Positions 24,824 through 45,981 of a stretch of 64,000 bases of DNA are shown piece by piece. The first letter of the stretch is position 1. The number at the start of each line of letters is the position of its first letter. The notes beneath the pieces are model-generated. The model saw nothing but the letters and a program-made list of their open reading frames with translations, did not search any database and had not been told where the DNA came from. Position numbers and translations under genes: made by a program. The DNA lies in contig JAHREC010000011.1 in assembly GCA_020081605.1 (NCBI GenBank), forward strand, positions 4,836,001-4,900,000, in the 5' to 3' direction. Source of the stretch: Albifimbria verrucaria. Its lineage: Eukaryota > Ascomycota > Sordariomycetes > Hypocreales > Stachybotryaceae.

Positions 24824-26574
24824 ATGATGGTTAACCTTCCATGGATCTCGGTTCTGGCTATAGGGCTTGCACTTCTTCAAGCCACTGTATGCAGCTCGCA
24901 CCCTCTCACAGGACCCAGGATCACTGAGGACCTTCGAGCTCAGTTATCACCTCGGGCAGAGGTCGTCAATACAACAGATTCAGCAGTATGGCCTGAAGAG
25001 TTCCGGCCTCGTTACAACATTGTTGCACCACCCACGTACATCGTCGCCGTGAAGCCTGCGACTGTGGGCGATGTTCAAAAACTTGTGAGTGGACATACTT
25101 TATGAAGGCCTGGATGTCTCAGGAGTGCTTGATGTTTCTAGAACTTTGCTAATGACTGGTACACAAGGTCAAATATGCATCAAAGAATAAAGTCCCAATC
25201 CTGGCTACTGGCGGAGGTCATGGCTACTCAACGTCCTTAGGCAAACTGCAAGCTGGCATCGATATTGATCTCAGTAACTTCAACTCCATTAAAATAAATG
25301 CTGCAGCTGGAACGATGACGACTGGTGGTTCTGTGCGTGCTGATCAAGTTGCTGCAGCACTGCAAGTTGCTGGCATGGAAATCCGTATGTACATACCATC
25401 CCACCACTGCAGGGCCTGAATTAGCCTTGTCTCGGATCCCTGTCGCTTGCTAACACACCGTCTTATGGCGTAGCCGTGCCGCAATGCCCCTGCGTAGGGT
25501 TTGCCGGAGCATCGTTGGGCGGTGGCGTGGGCCCGTATTCAGGGCTGTACGGTCCGATATCAGATTCGTTGTTGTCAGTCGAGTTTGTAACTGGGACTGG
25601 CAAAATTATATGCGCATCTAGAAATGAGCATTCAGACCTGTTCTTCGCCATCAAAGGGGCAGGTTTTAATTATGGCGTGGCTACGTCTCTTACATACAGG
25701 ATCTATCCAGCCACAAATGGCGGGCAGGCAATGAACGCAGATATGATCTTCCCTGGAAGATTGAACGGGACAATTTGGCAGCTGATCAAATCGCTTGCTG
25801 ACTCCCAGCCGAAGGAGCTCAGTACTAGTCTTTCCGTCCGCTACAGTCCCGACCCGACACTTAGCGGCATTATTATCACGGCCAACTTCGTGTACGCTGG
25901 CGCACAAAACAAAGGCCTATCATTGATCAAACCATTCCTTGACCTTCAGCCTCTCAATGTCAACATATCGACCGTGCCATGGAACAAGGTCCCTGACGTT
26001 GCTAGCTATGGTGCCATTCGACAGATCGGGTGCAACCCAGGCGTGCGCTACATCCCTTTGGCGTGAACCTGTATGAGGTTGACGTGGACAATCTTGTCAG
26101 CGTTGTCGACTACATGCAGGATGCAATGTCCAAGAATAAGACTCTTCAGAACGCCTCTATTGTTTGGCAGCAATACTCGAGACATGGATTCCAGCTACGC
26201 AAGCAAGACTCGTCGGCGTTTCCTTTCGTGATGCCAAGGCATTTGTGTAAGTTCACCCAGCACCTACTTGTGCCAATCTAGAAGACGCAAAGAACTGGTT
26301 AATACGAGAACTAATGCGGTATTGGCAACAGACAAATCGGTGGTGTAGGGATTGATCAATCTCAAATCCCCCATTGTCACTTTTTACTCGATCTATTCGC
26401 GACCTGTTACAACGAGGTAGTGGCCGAGATAAGCTTGAAGTTTTTGTACACTTCGCTCATGGTGATGAGCCCGCTGCATCTTGGTACTCTGCAGCGAACA
26501 TACCGGCACTCTTGCGAGCTAAGGGTAAATATGACCCTGCAGGACTCTTCTCGTGGTACAACCCAGTCCGATAG
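24824..26574 (+). CDS. secreted FAD-linked oxidoreductase 1 (berberine-bridge type)
   Basis: Starts at one of two adjacent ATGs (24824 or 24827) with a signal peptide (MMVNLPWISVLAIGLALLQA). Introns at 25085-25167 and 25385-25473, plus one near 26245-26330. The FAD-binding PCMH domain shows ATGGGHGYS, whose His is the usual covalent FAD site, and QCPCVGFAGASLGGGVG, which has a Cys where bicovalent berberine-bridge enzymes carry their second FAD bond. C-terminal BBE block: GSGRDKLEVFVHFAHGDE ... KYDPAGLFSWYNP. Such enzymes oxidise or cyclise small secondary metabolites in the secretory pathway or outside the cell. Frame breaks by one missing base at 26054-26056 (CCC) and 26224-26226 (TTT). First gene of the cluster; convergent with the P450. 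Confidence 0.85.
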
Positions 26575-26754
26575 GATCAATTTGTGTTCATGAGATTTCG
26601 ATATACTATTTTTTAGAAGTAGATACATCTTGCAACTAGACGAAGAAAGAGCGGCGATGTCTAGAATAAATACTTTGCGATAGAATATCACTTTGGCGTT
26701 TCCGCTAGTTGCGACAAACGCAGTGCACACACACCCCAGACTAGCGTGTTCCAT

Positions 26755-42965: not shown

Positions 42966-43366
42966 ACTAACAGCAATTGTATGCGTTCACCTTACATTTC
43001 CTTCGTTCTCTCCTTTCGATCGCGCCCCTGTTCGCTGGAAGGGAATGGTAGTCAAGACAACATGGATGCCAATGTACAGCAAATTTGGTAGGTGCTTAGC
43101 GCAACTGGCACCAAAAAGCGTGTTACGTAGATGTTTTAGATTACATAATATTATCTAATGATGATCACGGTCGCTGCAGATCGTATCTCCGACAAGTCTC
43201 GATATAGACTAATTGGTTTGTATGGAGTTCGTATTCAATCTAGTTTTCCTTACGCTGAGTTATGAGTAGGCTGATAAATCTCATGCTAAATCGAGAATCT
43301 AAGCATGGCTATTGACAGTGTGCTCCCCCATGATCGCAGCCCCATGACCATCTTTTAAGTCAATGC

Positions 43367-45981
43367 TTATTGGGACACTTCAAGTTTATAGAGCAGGAGT
43401 CTAAAAACCCAATTTTTGCGACCGGTAATGACCTCAAGCTCACTTAAAGTTCCTTCCAGTTGTTTGAATAGTTTGTTCAAAGCACCGAGTGTGGATTTCA
43501 TCCCCTGAGTTCATCAATATTCCTTAATATCATGCGCTTCAGTGCATTGCTTAGCTTGTTCTGCTCTCGTCGAACTTGTAGGGCTTCCTCCAGTTGCCGA
43601 CTTGCAGAACCTAGGTTAAGGCAATGAACTAGAGGGAATGAGATCTTTCCTTCGTCAAGGTCTTCGCAAAAACCTTTCTGGTCCGTATACTACTTCATGT
43701 CAGTCTCAAAGCTGGTTCTTGGACCTTCCAGGGTTGCAGACCTCTTCCGACTTTAAATTCATGTAATCGTCTCGAATCTGGAAATACAAGCCGAGCTGGA
43801 TCATAAAATGATCGATGAGTTTTGCAACACTGAGTATGTTAGACTTGTCTCACCACGTTCTATCCAAGTACTTACCTTGCACTAAGGGTAGCGCTCATAA
43901 GACGCGACATCAAGCGGAACAATCCACCGGTCTCTAAGGAGCTCTATTAGCAATCTGTTGTAATAACTAGCTCTAAACATCTTACTCTTGGAGACCATCT
44001 CAAGATACTCTGCTTCAGTTGGGCAGTGCACATGCCGTGTCCAATACAAGTCGTAGCTCTGTCCCACGTGTAGGTCTCTCAGTTGCTCTGCTTTATAATG
44101 TCAGTCAAGCCGCCATCAGCATTTAAAGTTACGATTCAGGATGCACAAACCTAGCGTGATACCTACTGAGTTTGGTATATCCATTTTCGAGGCCTTGGTC
44201 AAGGCATCGACAATGGCGAAGCTTCCTGCATTTATGGTTTGTGGAACGCCAAATACACTATGTGTAGATGGATGCCCCGTCTAAGCTCTGACCCATCTTC
44301 AATATCGTCTAGCCTGATGAAAATCTAAATAAGATTCACTTTCGTATTACACGTGTACAAGATTTGTCCACTTACATCAGCGAGGCCGAATGAAGGAGTT
44401 TGATTAGATCCTTGACGTCGTTGGTGACCCTTTCCGGCAACCGCGCCCATAAATTGATGCCGTCAATAATCTCTTCGCGGACTCCTTTGGATGGCAGATT
44501 CTCGATGTATGATACTGGCTCTTGTACATGCTATCGCGGTATCAGTACTGGTTTTATACGGAATAATGGGTGAACGGACCTCCAGTCCCAAACACTCTTT
44601 GTTAGGATCGGTTACAGATGCCGTCGTCCAGCTATCGGAGTCGATGGATGTTGTAGGTGAGGATACTCTATTCATCCTATCATCGTTAATGGAAGACTCG
44701 CTTCCCGCACTTGACGATGATACTGAATGCGTAACCTCCATCTCGCATTCCTGCCCGAGTCGAGGGATTTCATCTGGCTTCCCACAGCTTTCACGACTGA
44801 GGAGATTTTCTAGGCCCGCGTTGGCATCATAACGAAATTCTGGATGATATCGTGGACAATTGAGACTCCAAACAACATTCCCGCTGATTTGGTAGGAGAG
44901 TCCTTGCAAATAAAGGTCAATCCGTTTCGACTTGAGAAGATCAGGACGCGTCTCACGTCTGCATAATTGCAGAAACATGTCTTCATATTGGTTGCACGCG
45001 TCCCGAACCATGTTCTTGGCAGTAGGAATGTCAGCACCTGTCCACCTCATGTATAGCCAAACTGCATTAGTTAATCTCTCAGTGCCATCCAATTGAGCTT
45101 CTTCCCATTCTCTGTCAAATGAGAAGTAGTCATTCGCCAAAGCCAGAGAAGCGTAGCATGGTCGTACAATATCCGCCAATAACGAATCTTCTTCTTCGCT
45201 TAGAGCTAAGCCCATACCAAAAAGCATTATGGACTCGACAAATCTATTGGCGTTAGTAGAGTTCTCATTGAATGTCTAGGTTCGACGCAGCTTACGGTCC
45301 TCCAGTATCGACGATTCGAAAATCCAAATATTGTTCTATGCTCTCAAACTCGGTTGACTTATCCTTCACCGTAGTCGAGAGCATCTTTCTCCAAACCTGC
45401 AGTACTCTGTTTGCACATTTCTTATCGGTAGACAATAGCTGCAATATCATTTTCGCTTGTAGTTGCTTCCTTCCGATTTCGATACTTGAATGATTTGACA
45501 CAGCTTCACTCAGGGAAAATTCGTCTTGCTAAAAGTTGATGAATTGGTTAGCTACCGCATACCATTCCCAATATCCTCGCCTGACTTACTCCTGTGATGT
45601 TCAGGTTTTCGACGACGTTGTCGTGAAGAAAAGCGTCTTTTGTCAATAATTAGCATAATATTTTGTTATGACCCTTACATACAAAGACCTACATTCCAAG
45701 ATGTATGACACAAGCTCGAGTCTCTCGGGTTTGCATAATGGAAGGACAACAGCATTGAAATTGCCATTGACAGGGTTGCAGCCCCCAAATTTGGAGGTAG
45801 GACTGATGAGATCTCCCCAATCGGACCTTGCTTGATGACAGCCTATATTGGCCATATATTCATATCTATGCCGTCTCAGTTGGTATCCTTTGCAGAAGCC
45901 ACGGGTGTCATATTGGCTTAAATCCACATGGTATGAGGTATAATCTTCGTCCATTGTAGATATCACAGAATATTTTTGCAA
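43367..45981 (-). CDS. chimeric terpene synthase: class I cyclase fused to a prenyl-diphosphate synthase
   Basis: N-terminal class I terpene cyclase: CNPVNGNFNAVVLP, first metal motif in the DNVVE form (FLHDNVVE near 45620), NSE-type motif NDYFSFDREWEEA (about 45100) and GNVVWSLNCPRYHPEF. An Asp/Ser/Thr-rich linker follows. The C-terminal polyprenyl synthase domain has ENLPSKGVREEIIDG, the first Asp-rich motif LDDIEDGSELRRG (about 44310), the second RDDYMNL (about 43770) and FCEDLDEGKISFPL. This is the bifunctional architecture of fungal fusicoccadiene-, ophiobolin- and sesterterpene-type synthases, which build C20 or C25 diphosphate and cyclise it. Chain length and ring pattern cannot be told by eye. 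Several introns. One base missing at 44275-44278 (CCCC on the plus strand) and other one-base breaks near 43940 and 44500. Length of about 700 residues fits the family. Start taken at 45979-45981; one or two upstream in-frame residues make it slightly uncertain. Cytosolic. Confidence 0.9.

Follow-up and report, generated by a model that had tools for sequence, protein, structure and literature searches.

A stretch of 64,000 nucleotides from the Albifimbria verrucaria assembly (C8:4836001-4900000) was analyzed; "the window" below means this whole stretch, and positions are counted from its first letter. Genes were identified by running Pfam against the window's open pieces. The Pfam searches covered 111 distinct pieces, with 18 left-flank open reading frames (ORFs) of at least 100 aa and most shorter ORFs outside that set, and genome-wide searches covered the 41 contigs (48.4 Mb) of the assembly. 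Between 24.8 and 46.0 kb, a non-reducing polyketide synthase (NR-PKS) and a prenyltransferase–terpene synthase chimera lie side by side within 21 kb. A P450, two unlike FAD-linked oxidases and a methyltransferase share the block, and Pfam found all of these genes where a preceding sequence-only reading had placed them. Reading frames are nevertheless broken in both core enzymes, at least seven times in the PKS and twice in the chimera, and a 154-aa ORF had been left off the list of that reading. We tentatively regard the block as one biosynthetic gene cluster making a polyketide–terpene hybrid, at rather less than an even chance.

The two core enzymes

The NR-PKS gene occupies 29626–37866 on the forward strand, with both ends set by eye. 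Pfam matches between 29.7 and 37.2 kb comprise SAT, Ketoacyl-synt_C, Acyl_transf_1, PS-DH (that is, PT), PP-binding, a methyltransferase and Abhydrolase_3, while the helix-turn-helix match of the CMeT falls under the cut-off. Pfam matches and motif positions together give the domain order SAT-KS-AT-PT-ACP-ACP-CMeT-hydrolase. Spread over three frames, the motifs TACSSS, EAHGTGT, NIGH, GHSLGE, two ACP DSL motifs, EVGGGTGG and GWSTGG are all kept. The N-terminal half of the KS ranks second among the 123 ketoacyl-synt matches genome-wide. The closest solved relative of the CMeT in the PDB is that of the citrinin PKS (5mpt, 8.1e-38). The earlier description of the enzyme as C-methylating is supported.

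Passages of PMC5591372 define group VI NR-PKSs by a CMeT and a TE-like end, as found here, and group VII by a C-terminal R domain. The Pfam hits include no R-domain family. With a CMeT, a TE-like release domain and no C-terminal R domain, the enzyme is predicted to be group VI-like, an assignment by domains rather than by phylogeny. We take AusA and MpaC to be group VI NR-PKSs. Meroterpenoid members of the group presumably work with UbiA prenyltransferases, unlike the present PKS, which has no UbiA match in its window.

KS relatives 68–72% identical over 58–66% of the query were found among the best 120 of 659 matches; those 120 included nothing near-identical to the KS piece, longer proteins being outside the length range of the search. 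A region search for full-length PKS relatives was uninformative, since the best 120 of its 7553 matches were mostly bacterial multi-domain proteins. In a C-methylating NR-PKS paralogue (L008, G000:C33:272800-282500), the KS active-site cysteine reads tyrosine (IDTAYSSS) in the models. With this cysteine replaced and with frame breaks of its own, L008 was rejected as an intact reference PKS and served for the 3′ half of the PKS alone, where it was treated as a distant reference.

The chimera was delimited by Pfam, motifs and alignments at 43367–45954 on the reverse strand and consists of an N-terminal class I cyclase and a C-terminal prenyltransferase. Terpene_syn_C_2 matches at 44.5–45.3 kb (8.8e-10), and polyprenyl_synt (PF00348) matches weakly at 43.55–43.69 and 43.99–44.28 kb. 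Metal-binding motifs are present in both halves: an Asp-rich DNVVE with one variant residue and the NSE-type NDYFSFDRE in the cyclase, DDIED and DDYMN in the prenyltransferase. Six relatives of 649–704 aa, taken from 142 hits and aligned frame-tolerantly, cover 43.38–45.95 kb (P0005 only from 45.82 kb). The Terpene_syn_C_2 match, the cyclase motifs and the alignment of all six chimeras support a chimeric class I synthase. All six references also align the prenyltransferase domain, but with two frame breaks in each. The further claim that the enzyme makes its own C20/C25 diphosphate could not be carried over, because the prenyltransferase half reads out of frame twice, probably through assembly error; the chain length of the product may be either C20 or C25.

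The closest named relative of the cyclase half is a 649-aa Thermocarpiscus australiensis chimera, with 61% identity; identity is 59% to a Rhypophila decipiens chimera and 49% to a 316-aa Fusarium graminearum protein (P0014). A 254-aa ORF (P0001) on a 70.9-kb metagenome contig is 99% identical to the cyclase query over 54% of it. Among 28 PDB matches, FgGS of F. graminearum scored best (352.7 bits), followed by three chains labeled only "Terpene synthase". Variediene synthase (325.9 bits) and fusicoccadiene synthase (183.5 bits) came further down, and the stellatatriene, astellifadiene, sesterbrasiliatriene and sesterfisherol synthases scored lower still, from 145.8 to 80.9 bits. The cyclase thus has FgGS and variediene synthase as its best named solved relatives; both are known as terpene synthases, and we know of no PKS partner of either. 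We take the higher-scoring named relatives to be of type B (C1-III-IV) and the lower-scoring ones to be of type A. Both modes of cyclization are described in passages of PMC8307374 and PMC9605422.

Tailoring genes

FAD1 (24827–26571, forward strand; ends approximate, frame changes placed by eye) is a BBE-type FAD-linked oxidase. Pfam matched FAD_binding_4 at 6.7e-11 and 2.6e-6, and BBE at 4.6e-4, exactly at the cut-off. Its best solved relatives in the PDB are PpBBE-like 1, 6-hydroxy-D-nicotine oxidase and EncM. SorD, THCA synthase, MaDS1 and MaDA1 match more weakly, the last two as weak matches among some 60 flavoproteins. The only cytochrome P450 of the block (26972–28434, reverse strand; start set by eye) has a heme-binding motif and p450 matches on three pieces at 26.97–28.02 kb.

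On the far side of the PKS, the gene finder's model of an S-adenosylmethionine-dependent methyltransferase spans 38727–39646 on the forward strand, with Methyltransf_25 at 38.9–39.6 kb; no PDB match was found at E ≤ 0.001. This home-made gene finder, run at its middle setting, served for orientation only. FAD2 (39769–41500, reverse strand; 5′ end approximate) is a second BBE-type FAD-linked oxidase, unlike FAD1. It matches BBE clearly at 39.8–41.1 kb (1.1e-11), and its FAD_binding_4 score of 22.4 bits falls under the cut-off of 26.4. Between FAD2 and the chimera lies the 154-aa ORF of unknown function (42525–42986, reverse strand), for which Pfam returned nothing at E ≤ 0.01; LDcluster4, at E 0.077, did not reach the cut-off. 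We take its LRYKDYQ stretch to be reminiscent of RWD/DUF1115 proteins.

Other meroterpenoid families and rarity of the pairing

None of the 12 genome matches to UbiA (13 of 13 candidates scored) lies in the window, and neither does any of the six to Trp_DMAT or of the 22 to FAD_binding_3, the TropB-type family (19 of 119 first-look candidates scored). All three families are also missing from the Pfam hits of the 111 pieces. No dioxygenase family of the kind expected for TropC, a non-heme iron enzyme, appears among those hits, with no genome search made for it, and the family of Pyr4-type membrane cyclases is absent from them too, with no search aimed at it. The earlier statement that neither a UbiA enzyme nor a separate membrane cyclase is present therefore holds for UbiA in the window; for the cyclase it amounts to absence from general Pfam hits.

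A KS lies within 20 kb of a Terpene_syn_C_2 match at one of 19 loci, and that locus is the present one, with a distance of 14 kb; 26 and 32 kb are the next shortest distances. This count used 58 of the 123 KS matches, the rest being judged further exons of the same genes, and eight of the 19 loci are on contigs without a KS match, several of them near-identical copies. Terpene synthase genes were seen on near-identical stretches of 9.6–9.9 kb on contigs C9, C17, C18, C19 and C37 and on C31, C34 and C37, with 99.7–100% identity in nine comparisons; these are possibly subtelomeric or accessory-chromosome repeats.

To contrast the block with NR-PKS plus UbiA as the normal fungal arrangement was too strong, as NR-PKSs with class I cyclases are known from xenovulene, eupenifeldin and the melleolides. 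Our searches of one open-access library brought up no paper identifiable as describing an NR-PKS clustered with a prenyltransferase-fused (chimeric) synthase. The kind of pairing is known, and the chimeric C20/C25 partner would be new.

Frame breaks

Frame-tolerant alignments break the PKS frame at least seven and up to about 12 times. Breaks lie at about 29.9 kb (five of the five references reaching it), 30.5 kb (7/7), 31.65 kb (7/8), 32.1–32.2 kb (two of two, placed 66 nt apart), 32.8 kb (2/2), and 35.58 and 35.91 kb (2/2, both references from one paralogue). Single references add breaks near 33.8, 34.5, 34.6, 37.5 and 37.6 kb, and at 30.74 kb two of eight alignments have a break and six a short intron. 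The chimera is broken at 44.27–44.28 and 43.50–43.52 kb, both in the prenyltransferase half and each in six of six references. No intron explains either break, and the gene finder's model masks the first with an unlikely one. Further chimera calls came from single references at 45.60 kb (P0010) and 43.69 kb (P0005) and from P0002 and P0005 at 43.48 kb.

So many breaks raise the possibility of a decayed locus, a pseudogene remnant that makes nothing now. The tyrosine in the KS of L008 points the same way, in that such genes may decay in this genome. Nevertheless, no in-frame stop was found in the alignments of the chimera (6/6) or the PKS (8/8 and 6/6), although one could be concealed in an intron placed by the aligner. 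No signature of repeat-induced point mutation was found, and the motifs are kept.

Moreover, an essential gene is broken in the same manner. In RPA2, encoding the second-largest subunit of RNA polymerase I (L010, G000:C15:5481500-5487500), the open frame extends to yeast residue 537 and the next frame takes over from residue 538 at the same base, position 1375 of the locus, without room for an intron. A second break near position 2245 is seen by both covering references. We take these breaks as a sign of residual indel errors in the assembly. Repeat copies that are nearly identical, on small contigs, show 0–8 indels and 0–19 substitutions per 9.6–9.9 kb. In nine overlapping comparisons each of the 34 indel events affects a single nucleotide, and 20 fall within homopolymers of at least 3; given the substitutions, some of the differences may be real. 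The ten cluster break positions examined lie nearer homopolymers than random positions do (mean longest run 3.3 versus 2.74, P 0.027).

Break rates were compared by a rule that counts breaks seen by at least two references and by 60% of those covering, and by a second count that adds single-reference breaks. Under the first, the cluster has 5 breaks in 5.0 kb against 2 in 9.7 kb of three RNA polymerase subunit genes (P 0.05), an excess that favors decay, and seven NR-PKS paralogues have 21 in 19.05 kb (none in L006, 3–4 in each of the others; P 0.66). With single-reference breaks included, the cluster has 5, the paralogues 26 (P 0.80) and the polymerase genes 5 (P 0.23), and the polymerase and fatty acid synthase (FAS) genes together, seven essential-type loci, have 17 in 21.8 kb (P 0.40). 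Breaks are no more frequent in the cluster than in the NR-PKS paralogues, and whether they exceed those of essential-type genes varies with the rule chosen; the control references are only 26–57% identical, and missed and false breaks are both possible.

The two-reference rule cannot count L013 and L014, with one reference each, or L001 and L004, with two that cover mostly different parts, and the P values of 0.014 and 0.003 that it returns against these four loci are meaningless. It also leaves the 32.1–32.2 kb break uncounted, owing to the distance between the two placements. Rates entered by hand (cluster 6 in 4.85 kb versus 5 in 15.9 kb, P 0.025; paralogues 13 in 14 kb, P 0.36) were withdrawn because they omitted the FAS-beta-type loci L001 and L004 and because the excess disappeared in the rule-based recount with single-reference breaks. 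Assembly error is the likelier cause of the frame breaks, because the catalytic motifs are intact, in-frame stops are lacking and RPA2 is broken alike; decay of the cluster is improbable.

One hybrid product or two modules

If the block acts as one cluster, the NR-PKS would make a C-methylated orsellinate-type aromatic acyl group. The chimera would make and cyclize a C20 or C25 diphosphate, probably in the C1-III-IV (type B) mode of its nearest relatives, and the block's only P450 would hydroxylate the terpene hydrocarbon to an alcohol. The halves would then be joined by the hydrolase domain at the C-terminus of the PKS or via an oxidase-made quinone methide, and the methyltransferase and BBE-type oxidases would finish the product. 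This scheme takes the frame breaks as assembly errors. A cyclized class I hydrocarbon retains no diphosphate; UbiA-style prenylation would therefore be excluded and the halves would be joined late.

For the joining step of this hybrid pathway, melleolide-like ester formation by the PKS hydrolase domain is the favored candidate, because it would need no gene outside the block; the hydrolase motif (GWSTGG) is present. For ArmB, passages of PMC7778616 and PMC5591372 describe aryl attachment by the PKS's own cross-coupling TE domain. Hetero-Diels-Alder addition of a class I terpene to a quinone methide is described for AsR5 and EupF in parts of PMC8902786. In the mulberry BBE family, according to passages of PMC10954736, MaMO makes a diene and MaDA is an intermolecular Diels-Alderase. 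By analogy with mulberry, one BBE-type oxidase of the block might produce a quinone methide or diene, for which its partner would guide an intermolecular cycloaddition with the terpene. That a group VI NR-PKS and a chimeric C20/C25 synthase yield a new class of di- or sesterterpene–aromatic polyketides, joined without a prenyltransferase by a PKS-hydrolase ester or by the paired BBE-type oxidases, seems to us unlikely, if worth stating.

Compactness of the block, a single P450 for two cores and the one-in-19 KS pairing speak for a joint product. None of the Pfam families in the block is foreign to a hybrid pathway, one ORF being without a family. The fusaproliferin cluster, terpene-only and also with an FAD oxidase, has two P450s in the account given in passages of PMC8310001.

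Several observations weigh on the other side, beginning with the frame breaks in the PKS and the prenyltransferase half of the chimera. The block shows no evident joining enzyme, and no transcription factor or transporter family is among its Pfam hits. No 8-mer promoter word is common to at least four of five upstream regions (random mean 0.3; a weak test). The known cross-coupling TEs belong to NR-PKS groups I and VIII in passages of PMC5591372, and the present PKS is group VI-like. Finally, the chimera sits at the block edge beside FAD2 and is not interleaved with the other genes.

Since fusaproliferin synthase likewise lies beside an FAD oxidase, this last arrangement fits two abutting modules too, a known terpene-only layout in the passages of PMC8310001. 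On that account, rearrangement or the general clustering of secondary-metabolite genes would have brought together a polyketide module (FAD1, P450, PKS and methyltransferase) and a terpene module (the chimera with or without FAD2), each with its own product. The 154-aa ORF of unknown function that separates FAD2 from the chimera is in keeping with such a boundary, as are the missing joining enzyme and promoter word, and most fungal sesterterpenes are said in passages of PMC9605422 to need no tailoring gene. Nevertheless, a terpene module of chimera and FAD2 would lack its own P450, and a KS neighbors just one of the 19 terpene synthase loci. We give separate modules an appreciable likelihood, somewhat under a half, and the choice between one joint product and two abutting modules is about even.

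Comparison with known systems

In joining an NR-PKS with a TE-type domain to a class I cyclase and a P450, the putative hybrid cluster resembles the melleolide (armillyl orsellinate) pathway of Armillaria, with Pro1 and ArmB. Unlike the chimera, Pro1 is presumably not fused to a prenyltransferase. Passages of PMC7778616 and PMC5591372 describe the melleolides as products of a sesquiterpene cyclase and the PKS ArmB, which has cross-coupling activity. In these accounts Pro1 (protoilludene synthase) is the sesquiterpene cyclase and ArmB a group VIII enzyme that makes orsellinic acid, in contrast to the enzymes here; a GMC oxidoreductase is mentioned where the block has BBE-type oxidases.

Xenovulene and eupenifeldin are described in passages of PMC8902786 and PMC9503010 as made with a class I cyclase, the hetero-Diels-Alder step coming late. 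Like the xenovulene, eupenifeldin and pycnidione clusters, which make tropolone sesquiterpenoids, the block has a PKS and a class I cyclase together. Unlike them, it has no TropB-type match in its window and its PKS ends in a hydrolase. Their terpene cyclase is the divergent humulene synthase, and the propeller homologues here of the hetero-Diels-Alderases (AsR5/EupfF/PycR1) are distant and outside the block.

The fusaproliferin/terpestacin cluster (FUP1-5) likewise has a terpene synthase beside an FAD-linked oxidase, with P450 genes. Passages of PMC8310001 give it two P450s and an acetyltransferase; in the present block there is a single P450, and a separate acyltransferase family is lacking. 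The main text of that paper does not contain the word "polyketide".

Neighboring genes

Two tandem SMP-30-like beta-propeller genes, recognized by PDB matches, lie at 14404–15321 and 17961–18949, both on the reverse strand and 6–10 kb left of the block. They share 52% identity over the matched part. Both have matches to PycR1 (2.1e-11 and 8.1e-10) and EupfF (2.6e-9 and 1.6e-8) and lie 11–14 kb from the start of the PKS, which invites a variant of the joint pathway in which a propeller catalyzes a hetero-Diels-Alder coupling of the halves, as in the tropolone sesquiterpenoids. Both nevertheless match 2p4o better (9.8e-18 and 4.8e-13), which we take to be a hypothetical protein of cyanobacterial type, and the N-terminal piece of the second has no hetero-Diels-Alderase match in the PDB. 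The family has nine matches in the genome, seven of them outside the window. Two other genes, one with a rhodopsin domain and one NAD(P)-binding, intervene between propellers and block. The flank has a GC content of 0.50 against 0.45–0.48 in the block except FAD1, and the window lacks a TropB-type match. The propellers are probably unrelated to the block, and coupling by them is very improbable.

Elsewhere in the window, a fatty acid desaturase gene (DUF3474, FA_desaturase; 6545–8702, forward strand) extends over three open frames, through introns or more frame breaks. An MFS gene is found at 58.4–59.7 kb, outside the block.

Significance

Whichever account of the block is right, the frame-break controls warn that this assembly cannot be read for gene integrity. 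If the product is not joint, the locus holds two secondary-metabolite modules side by side. If it is joint, the cluster would bring large class I terpene skeletons into the range of fungal meroterpenoids and would provide a prenyltransferase-free coupling of aromatic polyketides to di- or sesterterpenes.

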